A DNA stretch of 26,478 nt, from contig JAHBMJ010000732.1 in NCBI GenBank assembly GCA_018398765.1, forward strand, positions 9,253-35,730, in the 5' to 3' direction. Shown one piece after another: positions 2,097 through 26,457 of this stretch. The stretch's first letter is position 1. Every line of letters begins with the position of its first letter. The notes beneath the pieces were generated by a model. It ran no database searches, was not told the DNA's origin, and was given only the letters and a program-made list of their open reading frames with translations. The position numbers and the translations under genes are program-made. The DNA comes from Chromera velia. Lineage: Eukaryota > Sar > Chromeraceae.

Positions 2097-2934
2097 CTAT
2101 TCATTCTTGTCTCTCCCCTCCCACTTGCATGCAACGACATCACCAATGCCGATGCTGTATTCACCTCCATGGGGCACAGCATGCTTCAAGAGAGGACGTC
2201 TTGTGATTCGAGTTTGTCTGTCTGCTGCCAACTTTTCATCTCTTAGAAGCATACAAACAGAAGACAATAAAATGCATCCACGATGAGGATACAGAACGCT
2301 CACTCTTCCGTTTTTCTTTCCTTCTTTCTGTTCTTCTGGAGTCGGAGTGTGACTTTCAATCTGCTCATACAAAGCATTCTCTCCTTTGAAAATATTGCAT
2401 TGGCTTCCAGAACCACAGCGGCACCACGCATTTCTTTTTCCTCTTCTTCACTCTCGCTGTTACCTTTCAAAGAACTAGCAGCTGCAGAGCTGCTCGATGA
2501 CAGCTGAACACCTTCCTGACTTATACCTGACTCACTGTTGCTCCTGACACTGCTGTCTACAACCTTAACAACATCATCGTCATCCTTCAAGTCAATATAA
2601 CCGACTCTTTGCAAATTAATAAGAGCTGACCAGCCGTTGTAGCTCAGCAGATTCATGTGGTCAAGCGGCTGTTTTCTGTTCCCCCCTCTAGGACCTCCTC
2701 CAGAAATTGCCACCTTAACCTTGCTTCCCAGGTTAGTCCAGATAGAAGTGTCAAGCTTGTTGATCAACTCACACGCTTTTGCATGGCCGGTATCCATCGC
2801 AGCCTTGATCTTCTTGTCTGTGAAGCGAAAGCAGGTCTTTCCCTTCACCCAGAGTTTTGGAAGATCCCCTCTCGACTTGCGGATCGTATGGCTCTTTTCA
2901 TATGAAGTGCTGCCCCCCTTTTCATTTTTATACT
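2097..2934 (-). pseudogene. Unrecognised hydrophilic protein remnant with one frameshift
   Basis: Reading leftward from about 2934, one frame gives a balanced, lysine- and aspartate-rich sequence. It includes a GGGPRGG turn, a DDDD cluster, and a serine-rich then glutamate-rich low-complexity tail. Near 2380-2400, at a short T run, the plausible coding sense moves to another frame, which continues with a PTPEEQKEGKKNG segment and ends in GRDKNE followed by a stop at 2097-2099. I see no GT-AG intron that explains the shift, so a one-base indel (decay or assembly error) is the simplest reading. I do not recognise the family. The first frame is also open upstream to 3457, but that part looks like the antisense of the plus-strand remnant. 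The 5' end is therefore unknown. Confidence 0.4.
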
Positions 2935-2999
2935 CCTCCCGCCTCTCGCCTCCTCTAATAGAGACTGCTGCAGGACAGGTGCATTCCATAGGTGGGCGA

Positions 3000-3530
3000 C
3001 GTGGGAGGGGCGGCGACCAGCATGAGACGACCGACACCAGGATCATAGTCCCAAAGAAGAAGGTGGTTGAGGATATGATTGCAAAGAATATTAGCAACCT
3101 CAAGCCCCTAAAGAAATCCCAGAAAGTTTCTTTTGACCCCGCAAAGGACTGCGAGATTGTAGAGCTCCATGCGTACGATGAAAGAGAGGATCCAACCTCT
3201 TCAAAGGGGTGGTGTCTGGTCAGAGTCAAGTGCGGTGTCTGCACTCTGGCCTCCGAGTCAGAGAACGACTGCGTATGGAAGTGTTGGTAGACCGGAAAGG
3301 CAATGAGGATGCAGAAATTCGAGGGACACATCCTCTTCACACATGCAAAGGACGTAGCCCAGCAGACCCTGCCCTCAAAGGGTGTGTCCAAGGCAAAGAA
3401 TGATACTCCACCTAACTCCAGCCGGGGGGTCCGGGAGGAAGGGGTTGATGCAGACAAACGAGAATACGTCTCCCAAGTCTGCGAAGGCTGTACTCAAGGA
3501 TGACACCAAGGGCTACGGCAAGTGAAGTTT
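3000..3530 (+). pseudogene. Possible small plus-strand coding remnant, unknown function
   Basis: From about 3023 the plus strand reads TRIIVPKKKVVEDMIAKN and continues as a lysine-rich, helix-forming sequence, then a short cysteine-containing segment (VKCGVC), to a TAG at 3288-3290. The same frame continues beyond that stop with KFEGHILFTHAKDV. A 42-base GT-AG intron (about 3270-3311) would skip the stop. After a second acceptor-like site (gatgcag near 3453) another frame reads TNENTSPKSAKAVLKDD and ends with KGYGK and a TGA near 3524. It could be a small multi-exon gene or a decayed copy. The antisense strand is also open. No family is recognised. Confidence 0.3.
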
Positions 3531-5450
3531 GTTTCCTAGTTTGTTTCTCTCAGTTTCTCTCTTTTGTTTATGTATTAAGAGGGCATCAAAGGCAAAGAAT
3601 TGTTTTCTGTATCTCTCACTGTCTTATGACAAGCCGTTCTTCATCTGCTTTTGCCTTTAACAAAGCTTAGCCTTTCATTCATTTTGTGTCCGCCTCATTG
3701 CATACATACCCCTTTGTTGCATCGATCATTAACAAAAGATAGATCCCTATTGCCCTGAGCTAAGCCCCCACCTCGTTCCATCTGTTTAGCCTTTGTTTTT
3801 ACGTTTGCGCAGGGACTGGTTCGATTCATTCTGCTTCATTTAACCGTCTGAGACTGACTGAGATCATTTATGTCATTTGTCTGGTCATGCATAACTCTGA
3901 TTGACCGTTACACATGAGTCTGATCGATCATGGAGAGATGCATCATCAGTTGAGAGCTTGGTTTGGATGGTTCAAGCCCGGTTCTCACGGTTTTGATTGG
4001 GTTCCTTCTGGTTCAGAAAAGTTCAAATAGTTCTTATCTCTGTTCATTCGGTTCATGAACCAATGACCAGAACCGGAAGTGACACCGACCTCAGACCTAA
4101 CTATAACCACTTAGAACTTACTTAAACCTTAGACTTATACTCTAATTAATGGTCCTTTAGGGTTTTTTTACTTTTTAAAGTTTATAAATTGAGTTAAAGT
4201 TTTATTTTTTCATCAAAAAAGTTGTAGGAACCACACATGTAGTTAGGGATTGTCCGTAGAGTGTCATACCCTAGAAGAGGAACATGGACGTGAAACAAGA
4301 GAAAGAGGACGCGAGGATAAGTCCTGCCGCACTGCGATGACCTAACATGTGACCTAGCCTTCAACACAGACACAGTGGGAACGCAGCTGCCTGGTCTGTC
4401 GGCTGAGTGTTTCATGGTTCTTACTGCAAATCTTGCAGAAATGCTTTCGGTTTGGCTTGGAATTGTTTGGAGATCCGGAGGCCACGGCACGAGAGGTGGC
4501 TTTGCACGGTGGGAGAGGCCCCGGCACGTGTCCATATTTTTGCAGCGTTGGGCCGCGCGCGGCATGCCGTGACCCCCATGAGTTCCAACAAACTTTATGG
4601 TTTCATACTTGGCAAGATGATGTCTGAACTCTGATAATTTGAACGGTACCCTTCATATTTGCCTGCGATTTTTTTGGATTTTTCGGTTTGAATTCGCTCT
4701 CTCATCCCAGAACAGCAGGAGTTAGAGCAGGGCTACTCGGACCCGGGGCCTCACCCGGGTCTTCTAGAGGGAAAATAGTCCGGCATAGCCTCAGGCAGCT
4801 TTTCCATATATATGCAATCCACGACTACCAGCACCGTGTCTGCAACTTACTGCTCACACTAGCCTCATTCTTATATTGCTTTCATCTCACTGCGTGCTCT
4901 TAATGCCTCTCATTCGTTTGCTTTATCCCACTGCACTCCATTCTCTCCTTCCCGCTTGTGTGTGTTATTGCACGATCCTCGTTATTTGCATGCATCCTGC
5001 AGCTCTCCAACTGCCCAAAATGATACGGTCGTGTTAGCTTACTGCGTTGATATGTTCACTTATGTAGGTCTGTTGCTCGCATTCGATCATGCATTCACTC
5101 AACGTGTATATATCAATCTCTATTCATCTTATCACCGCTTGATCCCAGAATAATCGGTTTCACTACGTGCTTTTGTATGATAATCCACTGCTTTGCCCAT
5201 TTTGTTTCACTGTTCTCATTACACCTTTGTACACCACATCTCTCCCACTATCATCTAAGTTGCCTCTTTGCTAAGCTTTTCACACACACGTCAGCTTTAA
5301 TTAAATCTCAGTGCCCACAGCTGACTCTCTCATCATCTCAACGTCTTCTCTGTTCAGTGCTCTAAATCAGATTTCAATGCAATGCCATGGCCTCTTCCCA
5401 CTGTATTCTCTCTCATGTTTGGTTCTCGCTTTTTTCTGTCCATAGCCATC
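3531..5450. other. Non-coding stretch; GGTTC-rich patch and small palindrome
   Basis: No convincing gene. Positions 3955-4075 carry several GGTTC/GGTTCA words and a perfect 12-base palindrome, GGTTCATGAACC. Positions 4200-4640 have overlapping frames of at most 123 codons on both strands, with no domain or codon bias separating one from another. Positions 4800-5450 are T/C-rich. The isolated GGTTCGATT at about 3817 resembles a tRNA B box, but no tRNA body surrounds it. Confidence 0.5.
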
Positions 5451-14528: not shown

Positions 14529-14781
14529 NNNNNNNNNNNNNNNNNNNNNNNNNNNNNNNNNNNNNNNNNNNNNNNNNNNNNNNNNNNNNNNNNNNNNNNN
14601 NNNNNNNNNNNNNNNNNNNNNNNNNNNNNNNNNNNNNNNNNNNNNNNNNNNNNNNNNNNNNNNNNNNNNNNNNNNNNNNNNNNNNNNNNNNNNNNNNNNN
14701 NNNNNNNNNNNNNNNNNNNNNNNNNNNNNNNNNNNNNNNNNNNNNNNNNNNNNNNNNNNNNNNNNNNNNNNNNNNNNNNNN
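14529..14781. other. Assembly gap
   Basis: 253 undetermined bases. Both flanks carry GCATG, directly before and directly after the gap. Frames spanning it are meaningless. Confidence 0.99.
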
Positions 14782-16680
14782 GCATGTATTCGATAAATTC
14801 CAATTGAATCAGACAGCAGCCTGTTGGATTGTACTGGATTATGGTAGATTGACCGTGTGCTCCTACCGACACATTTGTGCACAGACAACATAGGATCTCA
14901 GCTGTTGGAAGAGACTTTCAATTTTGTAGAATCTCCATTATAAATGTATCATAACTCTGATTCATGAGACTTTTGTCTCCTATACGTGGCACTTGCCCAT
15001 ATTGAGCTGTTTTGTAAGTACTCTCTGCTACGTTTTCCAAGGTCATGCTTGGGGCCTGCGCAATACATATTGCACACTAGTTAAAAAAACAACAATATCT
15101 ACCACTAAAAACTACTGAAAACACTACAAAAAACTTTACAAAAAAAAACTATAAGAAAATCTGAAAGGTGCACTTTGATTGACAAATTGATAACAAATTG
15201 TGGGCAAAAACCTTCCAAAAATTTGTGAAAATAGATTTAAATAGATTTAATGACTTAATCTTTCAGAATCATATAAGAAAACATTTGTTGTTTGGCATCT
15301 GGTACGCCTGAAATTCCAAATCGATCTACCATCTACCTGCAGAAACTGAAAGAAACTGTACAGGTCAACTCAGCCACCCAGCCGTCCTTAGGCTTCTTGG
15401 CTGTTCCATTTCAACATGCAACCATAAACTTTAGGTGAGGTGCATCGCTTGATCTGCACTCTCAGCCACCCCTTCACCCCACTTTCAGCGCCGCGAGCCA
15501 AGTGCCTCATGCACACATTTGAACCACTTGACTGAACAGCTCAACTAAAAAAACTATCAGGACTCTTCAAGCCAACGCCAGCAAAAAAATGACAAACACA
15601 CGCGTTGCCCGAATGATCGATCGATCGAGAGATTGAATCGAGTGAAACAGCATAAGAGAGGAGACAACAGCGAGGAAATTATGAATTCTTTGTGCTCACT
15701 CAGTCCCTCGAGAAACACATGAGATATTTCCCTTTCGCTATGCAGGCTGACCGGAGAGCGACTAAATCTTTCTTCTTGCATCCATCGAGAGGTGCGAGAG
15801 GAAAAGCAAGCTGTCGCTTCTCTTTCTGGTCAGAACGAACAAATTCTGGACGAGAACCCTGAATGCCCTTCAGATAAGACGAATACTATAAAACTTTTGA
15901 GAACCGGGCGTGCAGTTGGACACTCACCCTTCTTTATTCCAGCAACCCGAAAATTTCCCCCCTTTCGCTCCCTTGACCAGAGCTCTTCCGACTTTTCAGC
16001 ATCCGTCCCTCCGCTCTGAGATGGATGCACGCTTTGACAGAATTTCATGCTCAGCCAGTACTCTCTTGTATTTCGTCAACGTGAATGAAAGATGCATGGG
16101 AAAATCGCTGTCCTTCAATTTGCAGTTTGGCGACGATTTGAATCGCTCGTTTTGTTTTCAAACACAAAAAAGACTCATCCCTTCCTGTCTGAAGGTCATC
16201 TTTCAAACCAACACCTGCTGCTCTCTTCCTTTCGCTTTCCCTTGCAAATCAGCTCGCCTGCTTACCAGGCTCTGGATTCTGACTCACTATAGACTTTCGT
16301 GCTGCTGCTTCCTCTTCTGCATGACTTATGCGTTTCTACTTATACGACTGTAAAGACTCAGACATGTGCGAGGACTGGTCGAAGAATGAGGACTGGGTCT
16401 CTGAGATCTCCCCCCCCGAGGATGAGAGATCGCCTTTCTTTTTGCCCACACTCTTCCGAATGTGCCGCATCTGCAGCACAACGAAAACATGATGACATAT
16501 GCACTAAGTGGCAGGATGCAGAGTCATTCATTCTGAATCAGGAGGAATCAAAGCAGTCAAAACAACATATACATGTGCAAGGATGCTGCGTGCGTATCTG
16601 CGAGTCTTGAGACTCCCGTCCAAGCGCACAAAACAAACGCCCTTTGCCCGTCTCCACTACCTAATTTTCCCACTTAAGCA

Positions 16681-17101: not shown

Positions 17102-17815
17102 TCACTGACGCACGCACCCCCCCTTCAAATGCCCTAGCTGCCTGACCAGTCGTGTGACTTTTGTGGTTCCCTGGAGGACGTTGCCTGTCTGCTTCTCCAG
17201 AGACAGAAGGGCACTCGTGAGGAGGTCCTCAGACGACAGCTCTGCCGGTCCGCTCCCGTTCTTGCCGCCACCCCCCGTCTCCCCCCCTGAGGGCTCAGAG
17301 GGCCAGGCCACCTCAGGGCCTTCCTCGGAGTCGTAAAACTCCAAACGGCCCGGACGGAGACGTCCCGCCTGCAATTCAGGAAGGCCAAACGACGTTGTCT
17401 GTCGGGATTCGCATGACTGCATGGCACCACTAGTGAGTGTATCTTCGCTATCAATGTAATGCATTTCCAAGCGTTATATCAAACGGAAGCGGATGGCTCC
17501 GTCAAGAAGTCTCCCACACCTTCCACCCACAAGAGAGGAAGGTGAGGGGCTGATGGAGGGAAAAGAAGGAGCGATTGATGAGAGACACAGGAGAACACCA
17601 GAGCTTGTCATCTGCTCCGACGCAACAATTTGTGCATTGAGGATCGACTGATGGAAACATGAACAGCCAAACACAAGGGGGAGCATCATCTTTGAAGCAA
17701 AGTCAACCAGAGCACCAAAATCCCTGGCATGATCACCAATAGCAAGTGTCTTTGGACAGGAGTAAATGCTCTGAATTTTCTTCACACTAGCCCAGGCCCC
17801 ATCATGAAAGCATGC

Positions 17816-17851
<36 letters not shown>

Positions 17852-18005
17852 GCCGGACCTGCCAGTCCAGGGGGAAGTAGGCCCTCAATGCTCTGTCTGG
17901 TGCCGCCAGTCTGCTGCTGTCGAAGCACTTGGGCTCTCCGAAAGGCAGGCTGCGGTGGAGGGCGTTGAGCCTCGAGGGACTCATCGCAAATTCTGCATCC
18001 ACAAC
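17102..18005 (-). other. Cytosolic tail with coiled coil (exons 18-19)
   Basis: Residues about 937-1073. KVVDAEFAMSPSRLNALHR follows S6, where TRP channels carry their post-S6 helix. A Gly/Ser-rich acidic spacer then leads into SSEDLLTSALLSLEKQ and QGTTKVTRLVRQLGHL, whose hydrophobic spacing fits a short coiled coil before the TGA. Coiled coils in this position help tetramer assembly in related channels. Confidence 0.6.
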
Positions 18006-21000
18006 CTGCAGTGAGTGATCAAATAGATCGGTCGAATCATTGGGTTCTGTCGGATGGCAGCCTGAGATGATGGATGCTTCATGGAGAATGCTTCCAAAAC
18101 AGCTAGGTGGTATGGTGTAAGCACCGCAGGATTGTCCGCCCCCAAGGAGTCTCCCCCCCTGACGAAATGACATCACCGCCGGCTCTTCCCGACGAAATAT
18201 ATCGACGTCTTATCATGCATCAGCAAAGTAAGCTCTCGATTCCATAAATCAGGTAACACAATTGAATGAAATGGACTGTTCATCTTCCTGACCGACCTAC
18301 CTTCGCAACCTTGGACAGGAAGACTGCGTGATCCGCCTGCTCGAACGCGGAGGGCAGAACAGCGACGTATACAGCAGCCACGGCGGAGAGCAGGAGAATG
18401 CAGGCGATGAAGACGAACACCAGCAGAGTGATGTGCACAGAGAGGTCCAAATACCTCCACTCAGGCTCCCAAGCGCCACCTGCATCCAGAAGACTTGGAA
18501 AGAGGTAAGGAATGATAGGTGCATGGATGATTTTCATCTCGCTTTTTCTGTTTTTGTGGGATCCAGTTGCTTGCTTAACTTGGGTTGTGCTCTTCCACCA
18601 CACATCAAGAAAATCCTCCTTTGAAAGAAGTCCACCGCAAAATGAAGGTTGCTAAAAACAAAGAAAGAACCCATGCGACACACCGAACATGCATGCGCAA
18701 AATGTGAGCATGGCCTGCTGATCGGACAAACAAGGTCTTTATCCCCTCAAGGAATGACATGAACCCCCCTCAAAGAACTAGAAAGATCTCAACTGACAGA
18801 GCAAGGCCAGGAGACGGACGGAGGTGTCCCCAAAGTGTTGGAACTCCTCTGAATTTGTGTCCCTCGCAAAGAATGTCACCGTATGGGCGAAGGCCAAAAC
18901 CAAAAGCAGCTGCGTACACTAGCACACATGTCTGAGGTATCATCCAGGGTTTCACAGAAAGAATTTGACGCCATGTCATAACCACACAAAGAGCAACCAA
19001 ACGGATGAACGAACAAGAAACAGAAAAATAAACGAACGAACACGCGAATGAATGAAAGAGAGAGAAAAAAAAAAAGGCGAATGACGAAGAAGACAGAGAC
19101 AAAGGAAGGAAGGTTTGCCGTATAGTCCTGCGCTCTGCACACGCACACGCCTACCGTCCCCCTCCAGCACGCGAACTCCTTCTATCACATGCAGGCCCGT
19201 CTGAACTGACCACCAGCGGGATGAATTGGCTCATTTGAGATGCCAACGCCGCCACAGTCTGTGCAATCCTCCGACCCTGCCTCGAGGCAGTGACCGCATC
19301 CACAGAAGCAAACCAGAGGATCACTCCGGTGATCGCCACTTCGATGACCTCAAAGTTATAAGCCCTCTTTACACCCTCAGTCTCCTCAGTTGCATCTTGG
19401 CCTACATGTCCGTGTGAAAGTTCCACCGCTGCCTTTGCCAGGACCAAAATGACTCCCACAAGGCGCAGGCTGTTAAGAGGCCAACTGAGGTGAAATGGGA
19501 TCCCGAAGGGCAGAGGCAGGCTCCCCGCTTTCCGGGTGGTGAATCCTCCTCTCAGCTGGATCACGCACCGGCAGCCAATGGCAACAAAGAGGACCAAGGC
19601 AGACCCCCACGCTCCGGCACGGCTTGCGAAGGCAATCCAGGGACTACCAGCGCCAACCAACCAGAGGTGGCCAGCAGAGAAGCACAAGGCCTGCAAATCC
19701 AATCGAAAAAAAACGACAAAGGAGATCAAGCATCTTCATTTCACAATTGAGACAGCACGATCGATTACAGAGTGGACTGCTTTCTGTGTGCAAGCCTGTA
19801 AAGAGACGATGACAAAACCTCTCATGAAAGTGTTTGTTTGCTCTTTCTTTCTACCTTTCGACTCCGGAACCCCTTTTCTAGAAGAGCATCAAAGAAAGGG
19901 GTGTGCTTTCTGATTCTACTCTTCCCTAACCGACCATGATTGCTGTCAATGACTGGAGGAGGAGCTCGCTCTTCCATGCGAACATGTTCCATTTCTTCGT
20001 CTGCAGAAAGGGAGAAGAGCACGAATTGCAAGAACCCTATCATTGTTCCGAACGTCAGAGGGGCAGGGGCGGCTTTCCCGACAGGGCAGATTGTCAGACC
20101 ACACACATGAAGAAAGAGGAAAGCAAACAGGCAGAAAAAAAGATGGACAGAAAGACAGACACGCACGTACACTTACATACACACAGAGGGGGGGGGGAGG
20201 GAACAAAGAGAAACAGATACACAGGGGGTAGGCAAGCACACTACCAGGCAGAAAGACAATCAGTCAGACGGAGAGACAAAACGAAAGATCTGTGGGTAGA
20301 GGCACAGGCACTCACACGTAGCGGACTGATGAACAGAGATACAGGGGACGATGATAGAAAGCAGGAAATGCAAGCAAAGAGAAAAGCACATAGAGAGCAT
20401 TCAAAAATGTGATGGACTATTGAGAGAAACACCATCTTTTTGACTGAGCAGAAACACATCACTGACAAGCCAAAAGTGACTGACTGCCTGCCTGACTACC
20501 TGCGTGACTGCCCGACTGACGGTAATAAAGTCCACTACTGGGTGTGCTGCCAGCTCATGATGTCCAGCGAGAGCGATTTGAGGCAGGAGTGTGTCCTTCA
20601 AGGAAGCATGAAGAAGGAGTTCCTCTGCATGCGTCTTTGAGGCCGCCTCTCCAAGGCCCGCCATGACAGCTCCAGACCCGGCAGGCAGTCCCCCCCCCGT
20701 CCTCCTGTCGTCAGTCCGCTCGTTGTTTTCTTGGAGTGGATTGCCCCAGAGTTCCTCTACGAAGAAGAGAAGCTTGCGGCGTCCGTTTGCTGTCTGCATG
20801 CACTCCGCAAATACTTGAGACTTACATAAGGGAGTGGAAGAGGATCGGCATGCAGTACAACAGAAGAAGGGAAGGGAAGGACGCTAAACAGTACAAGAAG
20901 AAAGTCGAAAGCAAAAAGAAAACTCCCCTTACTAGTCTGTTTGTCTGCTGAATTTGAACGATTACGCAATCCGTCCCAAAATCTTGGTAGGTCAATACTG

Positions 21001-24000
21001 TTGTTGTTTTGCTCTGCGCTTCTCTCTGTCCACCTTCTGTCTGCCTGTCTTCCTGTCTACGTACCTACCTGTGCGCTTACCAGACCGCTCGTCCTTCTGT
21101 TTCGCTCTCTTGTGTTGTCCGTCTGCACATATCTAACTTACGTGACTAAGGAGGGGAAAACAGAATATATTCCATGCATTGTCGCATTTTCAACTCCTAT
21201 CTGACGCACTGCGGGCGGACTGACCACTGTGGAAGCCCAGTAGTGTCCGTCCAGCATCGCCCAGAGGACGGCGGAAGACATCCTGATCAGTTTGGGAATC
21301 AGCAGGACGTTGTGAGAGTTCCACAGAGCGTCCCTGCCAAAGTAGAGACGGGATCTGTTCGTTCGAAGAGTCAGAATGTCCGTCACCTGCAGACATAAAT
21401 ACGGTTTTGTCAGCATTTGTCAGCTTTGTTCGGGTACCCATTTGGATGAAGAACCAAACGTCATCGTATGGAGATTTAAGATGTCCACAACGAACAATCC
21501 AGAAACAAAGAGTCGTAGAGAGAAAGCATTCCTCATTTGTCAGATCACGGTCGGTCTTGAAAACACTCTATCCATGTGTCCCTCTCATATTGAAGAATCG
21601 AGGCCACTGGTCAGGACTCACAAAAAACGCTATAATGCATTTCCGGCTGGGGAAAACAATGCCATCCTGACATTTACAGGACGCTTGTAAGTGAACGCAG
21701 GGCAAGACACTTACTTTTGTGGAAGGACACCGCGGTGGGTACGAAAGAGCTCAAAACAATGATAGAGCAGAGACGAACACGGATCAAAAATCAACTGACG
21801 AGCAGCTTTGCGAGATCAGGATCCCCGCTGTCGAGCATCCTGCAGAGGACGAAATAGATCGAGCAAAAGAAGAGGAAGTGGAGGGGCGATCGAAAGAGAA
21901 ACAAAGGATACATGCCGACACACCAAAGAATTGCAAACACCTGGAACAGAAACAGGAGAGGATCGGGATAAGGGGTGCATAAAATCGTTCTGCGCTTCGC
22001 ATGAAAAAGTGTAGGGAACACACAAAAAAAGAGCTATCAAATGTGCATCGTTTTTGCCGTTCAACTGACAACGGAACTCTTCGACTCTCTCTCTCTCTCT
22101 CTCGTTCAATCACCGCACAGATTTACATGGAGGCGATTGCACCTCTCTGGCCTACTGACCAAAAGATTGCAGATCTCTTCTCTCCCTTGATGGTCACCTC
22201 ACAGGCAGCAGAAGCCCTCTCCCCCCTTGGAATGTCCTTCAGAGCCTGCCGGAGGTCCCTGTGGCTCCTCACCAACAGGGCCCGAATCAACGGGTTCCCT
22301 GCCGCAGCGATCACCTCACTCAGGCCCTGTGCGGCCTGCAGGAAGGAAGGAAGGAAGGAAAGAAGGAAGGAAGGAAGGAAGGAAGGAAGGTGTCTTGTCC
22401 ATATGCATGCATGTGCTTTCATTTCCTTTCAGGAATTAAGACTCTACACAAGCATGCAATCAGAGTGGTGTGCATGCATCTCGGAGCCTTGATGTGCCTT
22501 TTGGATGTTTTGATTGTTTTTTGCTCCGAAATGAATAAGTTTTTCAATCCAGAACAACCCACTTTCACTCCTGTATACATCTTGTCTCTCCCCCTTTTGG
22601 CTCTTATTTCGTTCCGCTGTTCTCCGGGTGCGCTTTCCTGATGCAGTTTTGGCTAAATGTTTCTGGCCGGCTGGAATGCTGGCTGATCGACCCACTTACT
22701 GGCTGACCAGGCTCCAGTATTTGGTCCATGCGAGTTTGAAGGGAAGGGTCCATCTGTGCTTCCCGCAGAGTCTCTGGAGCGTGGAGAGAAGGACGGTCCC
22801 TGCAACGATCGTATGTTAAGTATTGAAGAAGCATGTACTTCTTGACTTGAACAGCTGATGCTGAGAGAGTGTCGGAAAAAAGACGAACAAGGGAAGAAAG
22901 AGGAGGGTACATTAATTACAGACGCGCATCGTACGAATCATGACGGCTGAAGTAGAGAAAAAAGCCTAAATTAAAATCAGAAAACAGTCGACCCATCAAA
23001 TAAGAATTGACAGACGGATCGACATGAATCGCGGCCTGCCTACCCTCGCCGCGTGACTGCCTGATTGAGGACCTTGCAATCTCACTGACTGACCGAACAT
23101 CGGCAGATCTACCGGAGTCACTCCGAACGCCACGCTGCACATAATTATACATTGGGAAAGTGCTTGAGAATTGCTTCTTGAACAATGACCACTCTCTGTG
23201 TTAATCAGTGTCGCGGTTGCTGCCTGTTTCAGGATACCTTCGACGCAGGACATGCTGAGGATCTCGGGGCTCTCAATCAATGGCCTTTGTGAACCTGCGT
23301 CCATTCCTTTGTAGGCAGTCCCATTCCTCCTTCCCGCTACTCCGCCGTCCTTACTCCCTTTCGCATGTGTATGCAGCAAAGCTACGGGAAACAAATGAAA
23401 ACAGCAAGAAACCTTCGACTCACTGACTGCCTGACTGACTGTTCGAGGGCGAGGTCGGGGTCATCTGCCCAGAGCTGCAGGGGATTGTCCCAGTAGGCGA
23501 GGATCCTGTGGATCTGGTTAAAGAACACCCTACAGACAGGCAGGCAGGCGTGCATACATGGACAAACAGTAGATGCGTTTGACGCACACACAAAAGCACT
23601 GGAAAGGAAAAAGGCATCGAGGGTATGCAGGTTTCACGAAAGCTGGGGACCACCTAGTAACAGCAGTTGATCTAATTTTGTGCTGAGTCAGGCGATGGCA
23701 TGTGCGTCTTTCGCAAGACCAGGCAGGATTTGACGTTGAACATGCACTTTGTCTTCAAAATGTAAACTCACGTTTGATAGCACTTATCGGACTTGACCCA
23801 GATCGCCTTCTGGCTGGGCGCCCTCTCGAGGAGAAACTGCATGAAGCTCTTCATGATTGTGTCTCTCACTGAGCGGGAGGTTTTGGGTCCCTTCTTCAGG
23901 CGCTCTGCGACTCTGCGTCTCCTGAGGGTAATGTCCTCGTCACTCTCTGCTGCATCTGAGGGCAGAGACTCCAGGGAGGAGGAAGCTCTCTTGACGAAAC

Positions 24001-26457
24001 TCCGACCCACAAAGGTTTTGCTGAGGAAACCCATCCATCCTTTTCTGTTTTTGGGAGCAGAGACGCTCTCTGCTTCCTGCTGTCCCTCCGATTCCTCTTC
24101 TGTTTCTTCTTTCTTGACCTGGACCGTTGCTTTCGGTGTGAAGTCCTCGGCTTTTTCTCCCTTTTCGTCCGCTTTGGGGCTCCCTGGGGACTCTTCTGAA
24201 GAGTCGGGGGAGCTTTGTCTTTCTTGCAGACGCACAACGCTCCCCCTTCGACCTGCTGTGCTGTTTCCCTGACCTATCAGACTGCTCCGTCGTCCTGTCA
24301 GGCTGTTTTTCCTACCCGGTAGCTCCTTCTTCTCCTGCTCTTTTTCGTTTTCCTTCGCATTCTCTTTTTTTTCTTTGTCCAACTCTTCGTCTAGGTATCC
24401 GTAGATCCCTTCCCCCTCTTCCGCTTCCTCCCCGTCAGAGTTTGCTTTCGCAATGCACTCCTCCACCGTTTTCCAAGAGTCAATAAAAATTCTCCCGTCG
24501 CTGCAGGTGAAATGCAACACCACAAGAAACAAACATAGAGAGTCAGATGGATGTACAGTTGGATTCTCTTTTGTGCAGAGTGCATGGGAGTGCTGTTTGG
24601 ACCAATTTGCAGAAGGAAAATCAGACATGACATTGCGCTGTTCTGCACGTGTGTTTCGAAATTTTGACTCACTGTCATCATGCGTCTGTTCTTCCGATTC
24701 TCAAAGGACTTTCACCATCTCACCTCTCAAATGCGTGAAGAATGTTACCGAGGATTCCCCTGTACACAGGGAGTCACAACAATAAAAACAAACAAAGGCT
24801 GATGGAGGTTTTTCCAGGCAAGGAAGGAAGGAAGCGACCGACTGACTCCTCTGTCCATCGCCCATCGTTCTCATCGACAGCCAGCTGCCACAGCCACCCC
24901 CATGCGTCCTCATGAGTCTGGTCCCACCGACGACCCACGATCTCCTGCATACACGCGACAACCGAAGCCTTGAACTGAGCTCTTGCAGCGAAGGCAGCTT
25001 GAAAGAGTTCCGCCTCCCTCCCTTCCCCTCCTCTTCTTCACATTCTTCCTCACTCATTGAGTGAGTTTCTCAGTCATCGATTCACTCATCCCCTCGTGTG
25101 CTCATTACCGTAACCATTTACACACGCACTCATTCCCGCGCTCACTGACAAACCTCCCAACAATCAGACATACCAGACACTGGCGACCAGCGCAGTGCAT
25201 ATCCAAAGCGTGAGAAAGCAACAAGGCAGGGAGGGAGGAAGTGAGGGAGGGACGGAGGGAGGGAGAAAACGTACCTGAAGTGTCTGCATCACGACTGGAG
25301 TCACCTGCAGACATAAATCCAGCACGAACACAGGACCTCACTCAAATCGCGTCTGATGAATTTGACCGCCAAACGGAAAGGGTTCCTAGGCCTGGAAAAC
25401 GGATGTTGGTGTTGGGATTGCGCAATCGGGAAAATGTGAACTGCTCTGCGGCCTTTATCGTATCCGTTCAAAACGGGACATGGATTTGATGTCGAAGGCG
25501 GTTGGTCAGCACAGATATGGATATGGTCTGATAATGGAAGGAGAGTTCTTTTCAGATGGGTCTGCACGTCTCTCCCTTTCATTGCGGCAATTCTTGTGAG
25601 GTCAAAATACTCGATGTACGCATTGAAAGAGGATGATATGATTCGAGTCTGCTGAGATGCCACAGAGGTTGCATGGTGTCTGGCTGCCCGATCATCCCGT
25701 CTCTGGGAAAGGGGATGACGCACGCACCTGGTCAAACTTGGGTATGGCCTGGTAATCCTCAAAGACCTCAGGCCAGGGGATGCCTGCATGCATTCGTCCA
25801 AACAACGAAATCAAACAGTCAGCGAGGAACCAGTGTGTGTTTGTGTGTGTGAGAGAGAGAGAAGGCGTCATTGTCGGGAAAGACGAAACCTCCTGAGTTC
25901 CCCGGGCTTTCTCAGCCGTCCCTTTCCCCAACGCCGAAAAGCACTGCATGTGCAGAGAGGCACCGCTTTCCCCTTTCCCCAACGCCGAAAAGCACTGCAT
26001 GTGCAGAGAGGCACCGCTTTCCCCTTTCCCCAACGCTGAAAAGCACTGCATGTGCAGAGAGGCACCGCTTTCCCCTTTCCCCAACGCCGAAAAGCACTGC
26101 ATGTGCAGAGAGGCACCGCTTTCCCCTTTCCCCAACGCCGAAAAGCACTGCATGTGCAGAGAGGCACCGCTTTCCCCTCAAACAAAACGGCAAGAGAGAA
26201 AACAGAAGAGAGATCTCCACAAGTGTAGAAAGGAAAGACGGGCAGCTGTGCGAAGAGGCGCTCACTGACTCACCCAGACTATTGACCACTCCCTGCACGA
26301 AGAAGAGCACACACGCAGCGCAGAAAATGGAAAAACAGAGAACTAGATGAGAGGAGTGTCATCCAAACGGCCTGTAGATGCTGTGCAATGGAGTGGAAAC
26401 ATCCGTGGAACACTCTACGATCCATGCCTGGAGACGCTCGGAGAAGAAATTCCCCAT
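17102..26457 (-). CDS. Globin-like/TRP-like cation channel fusion, 19-exon model
   Basis: Exons in transcript order: 26419-26457, 26274-26292, 25728-25783, 25275-25304, 24847-24974, 23772-24500, 23440-23529, 23238-23284, 22708-22799, 22198-22335, 21800-21940, 21225-21386, 20521-20820, 19935-20000, 19211-19690, 18798-18909, 18301-18479, 17859-18005, 17102-17368. All joins keep phase, giving 1,073 residues and a TGA at 17102-17104. Order: globin-like 1 (about 4-84), charged linker (92-298), globin-like 2 (about 300-410), pre-S1 (411-660), six membrane helices with pore (about 665-915), cytosolic tail with coiled coil (about 1034-1066). The channel half matches the TRP/polycystin layout, so it likely passes cations across a membrane; the sensor role of the N-terminal half is inference. 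The first ATG lies 21 bases from the window edge, and globin helices A-D are missing before it, so the true 5' end may lie outside. Least certain joins: exon 1, the 5' edge of exon 5, the exon 9 donor, and the frame of exon 11. Confidence 0.7.
17819..17849. repeat. (GA)n microsatellite next to a splice donor
   Basis: About 15 GA units (CT on the transcript strand) start ten bases inside the intron after exon 18. Confidence 0.95.
18301..19690 (-). other. Six-helix TRP/polycystin-like channel core (exons 15-17)
   Basis: S1 is completed by ALCFSAGHLW, S2 is ALVLFVAIGC, S3 is LRLVGVILVLAKAAVEL and S4 is VIEVAITGVILWFASVDA, with no voltage-sensor-like arginine ladder. The S4-S5 linker reads RRIAQTVAALASQMSQ, S5 LLLVLAFAHTVTFF, the pore helix FQHFGDTSVRLLALL, the filter LCGAWEPEW, and S6 HITLLVFVFIACILLL. 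The spacing of LAFA.....F, F..F......LL and the S6 length correspond to the polycystin-2/TRP pore module. The filter lacks the LGD or GMGD of PKD2 and TRPV channels. Confidence 0.7.
19935..22335 (-). other. Pre-S1 region of the channel (exons 10-14)
   Basis: Residues about 411-679. Helical segments without a recognised repeat family come first: NPLIRALLVRSHRDLRQAL, a hydrophobic stretch VFAILWCVGMYPLFLF, and LLIPKLIRMSSAVLWAML. The end, ELAAHPVVDFITTKKWNMFAW, matches the TRP pre-S1 pattern of a short hydrophobic segment followed by KW..F leading into S1. Exon 11 is open in all three frames; phase supports the one used here. An extra membrane helix in exon 11 is possible. Confidence 0.5.
22085..22103. 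repeat. (CT)n microsatellite in intron 10
   Basis: About nine CT units on the plus strand. Confidence 0.9.
22340..22390. repeat. (GGAA)n microsatellite forming a polypyrimidine tract
   Basis: About twelve GGAA units on the plus strand. On the transcript strand this is (TTCC)n directly before the tgcag acceptor of exon 10. Confidence 0.9.
22708..23872 (-). other. Globin-like segment 2 (end of exon 6 to exon 9)
   Basis: Residues about 300-410. SVRDTIMKSFMQFLLERAP resembles helix A/B, VFFNQIHRILAYWDNP resembles helix E with glutamine or isoleucine near E7, and VLLSTLQRLCGKHRW with LPFKLAWTKYWSLV is a G-H pair. It aligns end to end with segment 1: FFxxx...W, then Q/CMQEIVG.RW against TLQRLCGKHRW, then DAWGWLW against LAWTKYW. 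The F-helix region (ALEQPLIESPEIL) has no histidine. The phase-consistent donor for exon 9 is GTCAGC at 22702-22707; a stronger-looking GTAAGT eight bases downstream breaks the frame into exon 10. Confidence 0.55.
23900..24500 (-). other. Charged linker with RRxS-type phosphorylation motifs
   Basis: Residues about 92-290, in exon 6. The segment is rich in K, E and S and predicted disordered by composition. Three spaced repeats of G-R-[KR]-x-S (GRKNS, GRRSS, GRRGS; serines near 157, 164 and 178) and a fourth VKRAS (near 264) fit the basophilic PKA/PKG consensus. Several SP sites lie between them. This is where kinase control of the channel would be expected. Confidence 0.6.
24847..26457 (-). 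other. Globin-like segment 1 (exons 1-5)
   Basis: Residues about 4-84 of the model. FFSERLQAWIGVVNSLG would be helix E, VTPVVMQTLQF leads into helix G, and ACMQEIVGRRW followed by HEDAWGWLWQLAVDE is a characteristic G-H pair with the AW..LW pattern of helix H. Helices A to D are not present in the window. No histidine lies where F8 would be expected (DYQAIPKFDQ region), and E7 is not histidine. Exons 2 and 4 are only 19 and 30 bases. A six-residue start MGNFFS would fit an N-myristoylation signal (G2, S6) if the ATG at 26457 is real. Confidence 0.55.
25921..26176. repeat. 51-bp minisatellite, five copies, in intron 2
   Basis: The core AACGCCGAAAAGCACTGCAT starts at 25930, 25981, 26032, 26083 and 26134, exactly 51 bases apart. 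Copies are nearly identical; one visible difference is a T near 26037. Because 51 is a multiple of three and the unit lacks stops in several frames, both strands show spurious 17-residue repeat proteins. It lies between exons 2 and 3 of the channel gene. Confidence 0.95.

Follow-up and report, generated by a model that had tools for sequence, protein, structure and literature searches.

The window analysed here is a 26,478-nucleotide stretch of the Chromera velia contig JAHBMJ010000732.1 (contig C731; assembly GCA_018398765.1). Its minus strand carries, from 26292 to 16336, the 3′ part of a gene that is predicted to join tandem globin domains and a TRPV-like membrane channel in one protein. 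The window ends where the contig ends, and this end falls within the gene. Manual splicing of the minus strand gave a single open frame of 19 exons, consistent in phase and separated by GT-AG introns, which translates to a model of 1030 amino acids between 26292 and a stop at 17102. Searching protein sequences with the family alignment described below yielded an independent gene prediction from Chromera velia CCMP2878, P0001 (1226 amino acids; UniRef, accession beginning A0A0G4FY; named "Globin domain-containing protein"), which proved to be the prediction for the window gene itself. It can be seen that 1048 of 1050 aligned residues match the window translation, with residues 179-1226 identical across 19 exons and all 18 introns of the GT-AG type; the two mismatches, residues 177-178, lie ahead of the first true acceptor at 26292. 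Residues 1-178 of P0001 map outside the window, and an exact copy of them was not found in the 178 Mb assembly, where the search returned only diverged copies (best identity 72%). The published assembly is described as 193.66 Mb in 5953 scaffolds (PMC4501334). The name of P0001 mentions only globin, and the membrane part is absent both from that name and from the precomputed domains (PF00042 only).

A preliminary description of this locus had joined phase-compatible exons into one protein, and the 19 GT-AG exons together with the match to P0001 bear this out. The first exon that it placed at 26457 is not in P0001 and has been dropped in favour of the acceptor at 26292. P0001 also skips exon 24759-24724 of the manual model, which we rejected because it was likewise not recovered in the paralog on contig C2153. 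P0001 terminates not at the stop at 17102 but in an extra exon, 16470-16336 (coding 16470-16339). The features of the gene, in which G0, G1 and G2 denote the globin domains in order and S1 to S6 the predicted membrane helices, are as follows.

24847..26292, minus strand: second half of the middle globin-like domain G1, without a proximal histidine (exons 26292-26274, 25783-25728, 25304-25275 and 24944-24847)
23772..24500, minus strand: helix A of G2, a low-complexity insert carrying four or more R-x-x-S motifs, and helix B, in one exon; no kinase domain in Pfam scans
22708..23875, minus strand: G2 helices B to H, from Pfam and the family profile (end of exon 24500-23772, then exons 23529-23440, 23134-23094 and 22799-22708)
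21225..22335, minus strand: conserved ankyrin-like linker with motifs invariant in 12 members (exons 22335-22160, 21839-21800 and 21386-21225)
19935..20793, minus strand: linker to the membrane part, with the HPVVDF..KKW motif, and start of predicted S1 (exons 20793-20521 and 20000-19935)
19211..19690, minus strand: rest of S1, S2, S3, S4 and S4-S5 linker, predicted from hydropathy peaks, in one exon
18798..18909, minus strand: S5 and pore helix, TRPV-like in the profile match, in one exon
18301..18479, minus strand: filter-like CGAWEP, S6 and the helix after S6, TRPV-like in the profile match, in one exon
17147..18005, minus strand: C-terminal exons 18005-17859 and 17368-17147; the alternative manual model continues to the stop at 17102
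16336..16470, minus strand: last exon of P0001 with the stop, from the P0001 alignment

The same gene architecture recurs within the C. velia genome. A query made from the N-terminal exons gave 55 matches at an expectation value (E) <= 1, including the window's own, and a consensus of the ankyrin-like linker gave 40 matches at E <= 0.01, falling on 22 contigs at E <= 1e-3, that of the window included; a membrane query added contig C189. These family counts are lower bounds, contigs are not equal to genes, and models of the full chain cover only the loci named here. The family set comprises 12 members, namely the window gene and 11 paralogs, some of whose models had wrong ends that were trimmed by eye. 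All 12 entered the alignment of the ankyrin-like linker. The G2 alignment (n=10) left out C132, which has a suspect G-H stretch, and C3864, which has a cut start, although both have the histidine by eye; the membrane-region alignments (n=9) omitted C2621, C1757 and C3864, where this region is incomplete; and the G1 (n=7) and G0 (n=4) alignments used those members with readable exons. Searches for relatives outside Chromera found none, but they required shared 5-mers and limited lengths and in part scored a limited number of candidates, so absence elsewhere is not shown; the same protein searches returned only two Chromera proteins despite the many genomic paralogs, and a lone paralog exon used as protein query gave no match. 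P0002 (C. velia, 632 amino acids) is a paralog model in which an N-terminal leader is joined to the channel and the globins are skipped; the model may be mis-predicted or may represent a form without globins. On C2153 (L027), at about 2371-4717 on the minus strand, the equivalents of exons 21839-21800 and 21386-21225 occur in three tandem copies with identical scores; these could be alternative exons, result from a recent duplication or reflect an artefact of the assembly.

The paralogs bear directly on whether the globin and channel parts belong to one gene. In tblastn comparisons the N-terminal and membrane parts were collinear at paralog loci, and a splice-aware aligner written for this analysis recovered the chain from globin to pre-channel segment in all 11 loci that we modelled. 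The chain reached S6 in eight of them (C2153, C1217, C132, C1946, C2536, C2033, C2176 and C3489). Of the other models, that of C3864 extends only to about the pore, that of C1757 stops past the pre-S1 part, and that of C2621 enters a gap of Ns after S1, an S6-like stretch beyond the gap not having been used. Alignment scores for C2153, C1217, C132 and C1946 were 2002, 1312, 815 and 785, as against 149, 152, 128 and 133 on reversed DNA, a control run on four of the 11 loci with an intron penalty slightly above that of the forward runs. Exon sizes of 90, 41, 176, 40, 162, 66 and 179 nucleotides are common to the window, C2153 and C1217. The shared exon sizes and the difference between forward and reversed scores indicate that the joined gene structure did not arise by chance.

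In C2621 a single unspliced frame of 487 codons holds the third globin, an ankyrin-like repeat and the pre-channel linker. When this frame alone was compared with the PDB, its residues 129-228 matched the globin 3wfw (E 6.3e-5) and its residues 274-297 an engineered ankyrin (0.025), and a profile of the joined protein found TRPV3 (1.8e-9), globins (2.5e-9) and polycystin-2 (7.7e-9) together. We conclude that, at the level of predicted gene structure, the globin and TRP-like parts share one spliced frame. The reading of the locus as a globin-TRP fusion is thereby upheld, since the globin, membrane and joined profiles find globins, TRP channels and both, respectively. Of the two outcomes that would have spoken for something else, two separate genes are disfavoured by the collinear paralogs and the unspliced C2621 frame, and a non-globin fold is not what the sequence profiles point to. 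We consider the globin-TRP architecture very probably correct.

The preliminary description counted two globin-like segments. Their globin identity is borne out by the profiles, but P0001 and the paralogs are predicted to contain three tandem globins, G0, G1 and G2, and the segment taken as the first globin is the C-terminal half of the divergent G1. Window G2 alone scored 23.0 bits against Pfam Globin (22.6 with slightly longer ends), the cut-off being 22, and nine of the ten family G2 domains matched, seven of them above the cut-off; P0001 as a whole matched at 6.2e-13 over two stretches. The G2 profile gave 160 matches in the PDB at E <= 1, the best 60 of which were all globins (top 3wfw, 6.9e-12). 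Although the ten G2 domains are diverse (32-66% identity to the window), all have a proximal histidine at F8, a tyrosine that aligns with the E7 region of 3s1i, and either Phe or Trp at a CD1-like place; the helix-position labels for these residues (F8, E7, CD1) are our presumed assignments. In the window the codon for this histidine is split across exons, with CA at 23441-23440 and C at 23134. G0 lies outside the contig and is present in P0001 and the paralogs, its query matching eight contigs at E <= 1e-3; its profile found 3wfw at 1.3e-9 and scored 98.4% in profile-profile comparison with G2, and the proximal histidine is present in 4/4 sequences. A histidine that is invariant in diverse G2 domains and kept in G0, with the E7-like Tyr and CD1-like Phe or Trp of G2, looks as if a heme pocket had been selected. 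G0 and G2 are likely to bind heme.

G1 differs from its neighbours. No conserved proximal histidine was present in any of its seven aligned sequences, globins made up six of the eight PDB matches of its profile at E <= 10, and comparison with the G2 profile gave 89%. The kinase-motif linker of the preliminary description turned out to be the low-complexity insert between helices A and B of G2 with its R-x-x-S motifs; no kinase domain appeared in Pfam scans of the window exons or model, of which the single-exon scans are uninformative. A single-frame search of the C. velia genome with Pfam Globin gave one match, in a separate flavohemoglobin-like frame on contig C3421, and misses the family globins because they are split over exons. 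That frame (L022, 1252-2616, 454 codons) may be contamination, and the label of its flavin adenine dinucleotide (FAD) domain is our own reading.

The membrane profile (n=9) gave 195 matches in the PDB at E <= 5. The best 60 of the 195 all belonged to the TRP superfamily, TRPV3 at 8.3e-10, and others among those listed were TRPV1, TRPV2, TRPV6, TRPV5, polycystin-2, OSM-9-like, TRPM2-like and YVC1 channels. The reversed profile found five matches, none of them a channel (best OST4, 0.0079). In the profile match S5, the pore helix, S6 and the helix after S6 align with TRPV channels, and the filter-like stretch of the window reads CGAWEP. Hydropathy gave six peaks, taken as predicted helices, over P0001 798-1036, those of S5 and S6 being set far apart; a borderline seventh peak (1.65) at P0001 662-680 lies in the linker, outside the membrane part. 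The six-helix pore described previously as TRP/polycystin-like thus stands as far as the superfamily and helix number go, with TRPV nearer than polycystin. Polycystin was rejected as the nearest kin, as TRPV scored better with both the membrane and the joined profiles. By these profile matches the channel is nearest to TRPV, then to polycystin-2, and we class it as TRPV-like, not as a member of the TRPV subfamily. TRPV channels have an N-terminal run of about six ankyrin repeats. In the present family, the linker with the HPVVDF..KKW motif resembles the pre-S1 region of TRPA1 faintly (E 0.6).

Several observations weigh against a heme-sensing cation channel. The whole 1030-residue window model matched neither Globin nor Ion_trans in Pfam. 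Ion_trans was found in one of nine family models (0.0077) and fell below the cut-off in P0002; because the window alone gives no Ion_trans match, the assignment of a TRP-like pore depends on the family profile. S1-S3 contribute hardly anything to the TRP sequence match, and the filter acid is retained in only five of nine members. C1217 G2 had no match to Pfam Globin, and G1 is divergent and weakly globin-like, its best PDB match being leghemoglobin at E 0.01. Ankyrin similarity in the linker is marginal (Ank_2 0.0046 in C2621, below the cut-off; Kidins220 0.18; TRPA1 0.6), and the AlphaFold model of the globin-less paralog model P0002 has a mean predicted local distance difference test score (pLDDT) of 34.7.

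Weighing these points, we favour, at a probability of roughly 0.6, a predicted sensory cation channel that combines tandem globins with an ankyrin-like linker and a TRPV-like pore of six helices and that would pass a change at the heme to the pore. Here we infer heme binding, membrane insertion and cation conduction from the sequence, and to heme-dependent gating as such we would give even odds. In the proposed mechanism O2, nitric oxide (NO) or the oxidation state would act on the heme iron in G0 or in G2. Ligand binding or oxidation would shift G2, the last helix of which is predicted to run on without a break into the ankyrin-like linker and the segment before S1. In TRP channels the ankyrin/pre-S1 region couples to the helix after S6. 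A shift in the linker could accordingly bias the gate and alter the entry of cations, probably Ca2+. The R-x-x-S-rich insert in G2 may provide a second input of the phosphorylation type, and G1, with no histidine, may serve as a structural spacer.

The main rival accepts the fusion but takes the globins to be heme-less or a non-gating N-terminal scaffold, with the gate set by phosphorylation of the insert, temperature, force or lipid. We regard this as unlikely, though it carries real weight. G1 lacks the conserved proximal histidine and is only weakly globin-like, which suggests that heme binding has been lost in part of the protein, and the insert does have R-x-x-S motifs that could be phosphorylated. 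What such a scaffold would not lead one to expect is the F8 histidine in 10/10 G2 domains as divergent as 32-66% identity to the window and in 4/4 G0 domains, or the invariant Tyr and the Phe/Trp at the E7-like and CD1-like places. A second possibility, that the globins catalyse a reaction or scavenge gases (as an NO dioxygenase, or by removing O2 or NO) at the membrane beside the channel and are not its gate, seems very improbable: flavohemoglobins and an NO dioxygenase are among the PDB matches of the globin profile, yet Pfam scans of the window model and P0001 gave no reductase (FAD/nicotinamide adenine dinucleotide, NAD) domain, and a separate flavohemoglobin-like frame exists elsewhere in the genome. 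That the globin and channel are two neighbouring genes, or their join an error of gene model or assembly, we can scarcely credit, for even though P0001 is itself only a gene prediction (the published C. velia genes were predicted with Augustus; PMC4501334) and P0002 lacks the globins, the order is kept in 11/11 modelled paralog loci, intron positions are shared with paralogs, and the unspliced C2621 frame runs from globin through pre-channel linker.

Outside the coding parts of the gene, the intron between exons 26292-26274 and 25783-25728 contains a 51-bp tandem repeat (window 25920-26178) with in-register copies, the inner ones 99-100% identical. A run of 253 Ns (window 14529-14781) separates the gene from the left half of the window. 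The longest open frame there lies at 2303-3493 on the minus strand (397 codons), and a Pfam scan of this and seven other left-hand frames gave no match at E <= 0.01.

The predicted sensory channel can be set against several known systems. With TRPV channels (TRPV3, TRPV1 and others) it shares the alignment of the S5-S6 region and an ankyrin-like part N-terminal to S1; TRPV channels are without globins, and in the present family similarity to canonical ankyrin repeats is marginal and the filter sequence differs (CGAWEP). The F-type globins, that is flavohemoglobins and bacterial single-domain globins (3wfw, 3s1i, 1cqx), are the best sequence matches of G2 and G0 and share the proximal histidine, but their partner, where they have one, is a reductase or a Roadblock domain; in the present protein it is a predicted channel, and G2 has a long A-B insert. 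Bacterial globin-coupled sensors, with their variable C-terminal outputs (PMC1457004), likewise place the globin ahead of the output; an ion channel is not mentioned as an output in the parts of that paper that we consulted, and three tandem globins are found here. Nematode GLB-33, a putative globin-coupled transmembrane receptor (PMC13331133), is also a globin fused to a membrane protein, but it is described there as a receptor of unassigned function and the exception among metazoans, and in related work its membrane part is likened to a 7-helix G protein-coupled receptor and not to a channel (PMC1457004). Two algal proteins of more than 1000 amino acids, the chimeric globins of Guillardia theta, have six globin domains between them (PMC4101818); they have a cytochrome b5-like N-terminus, and in the text available to us the words 'channel', 'transmembrane' and 'ankyrin' do not occur. 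Our literature searches found no globin-ion channel fusion, subscription literature being mostly beyond their reach, and globin, TRP and ion channel have no occurrences in the main text of the Chromera genome paper (PMC4501334). We conclude that the domains, as identified, are known ones in a sensor-channel architecture that we did not find in print.

Known outputs of globin sensors include cyclases, kinases and chemoreceptors, and the known stimuli of TRP channels include heat, lipids, force and chemicals. A covalent fusion of the two would, if our reading is correct, equip a channel with a defined heme sensor, and the effect of a gas on membrane current would become testable on a single protein. 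A natural heme-gated cation channel of this kind could double as a genetically encoded tool. We would give even odds that the many TRPV-like channels of Chromera velia form the first ion-channel family with built-in globin sensors, in which tandem heme globins would let O2, NO or redox state gate the entry of Ca2+ or other cations. That the family is so large suggests that the cell has a use for many versions. If the prediction holds, these proteins would constitute a direct switch from gas to ion current in a photosynthetic organism related to the apicomplexan parasites, and would offer a hint as to how such an alga tracks its own O2 or NO.

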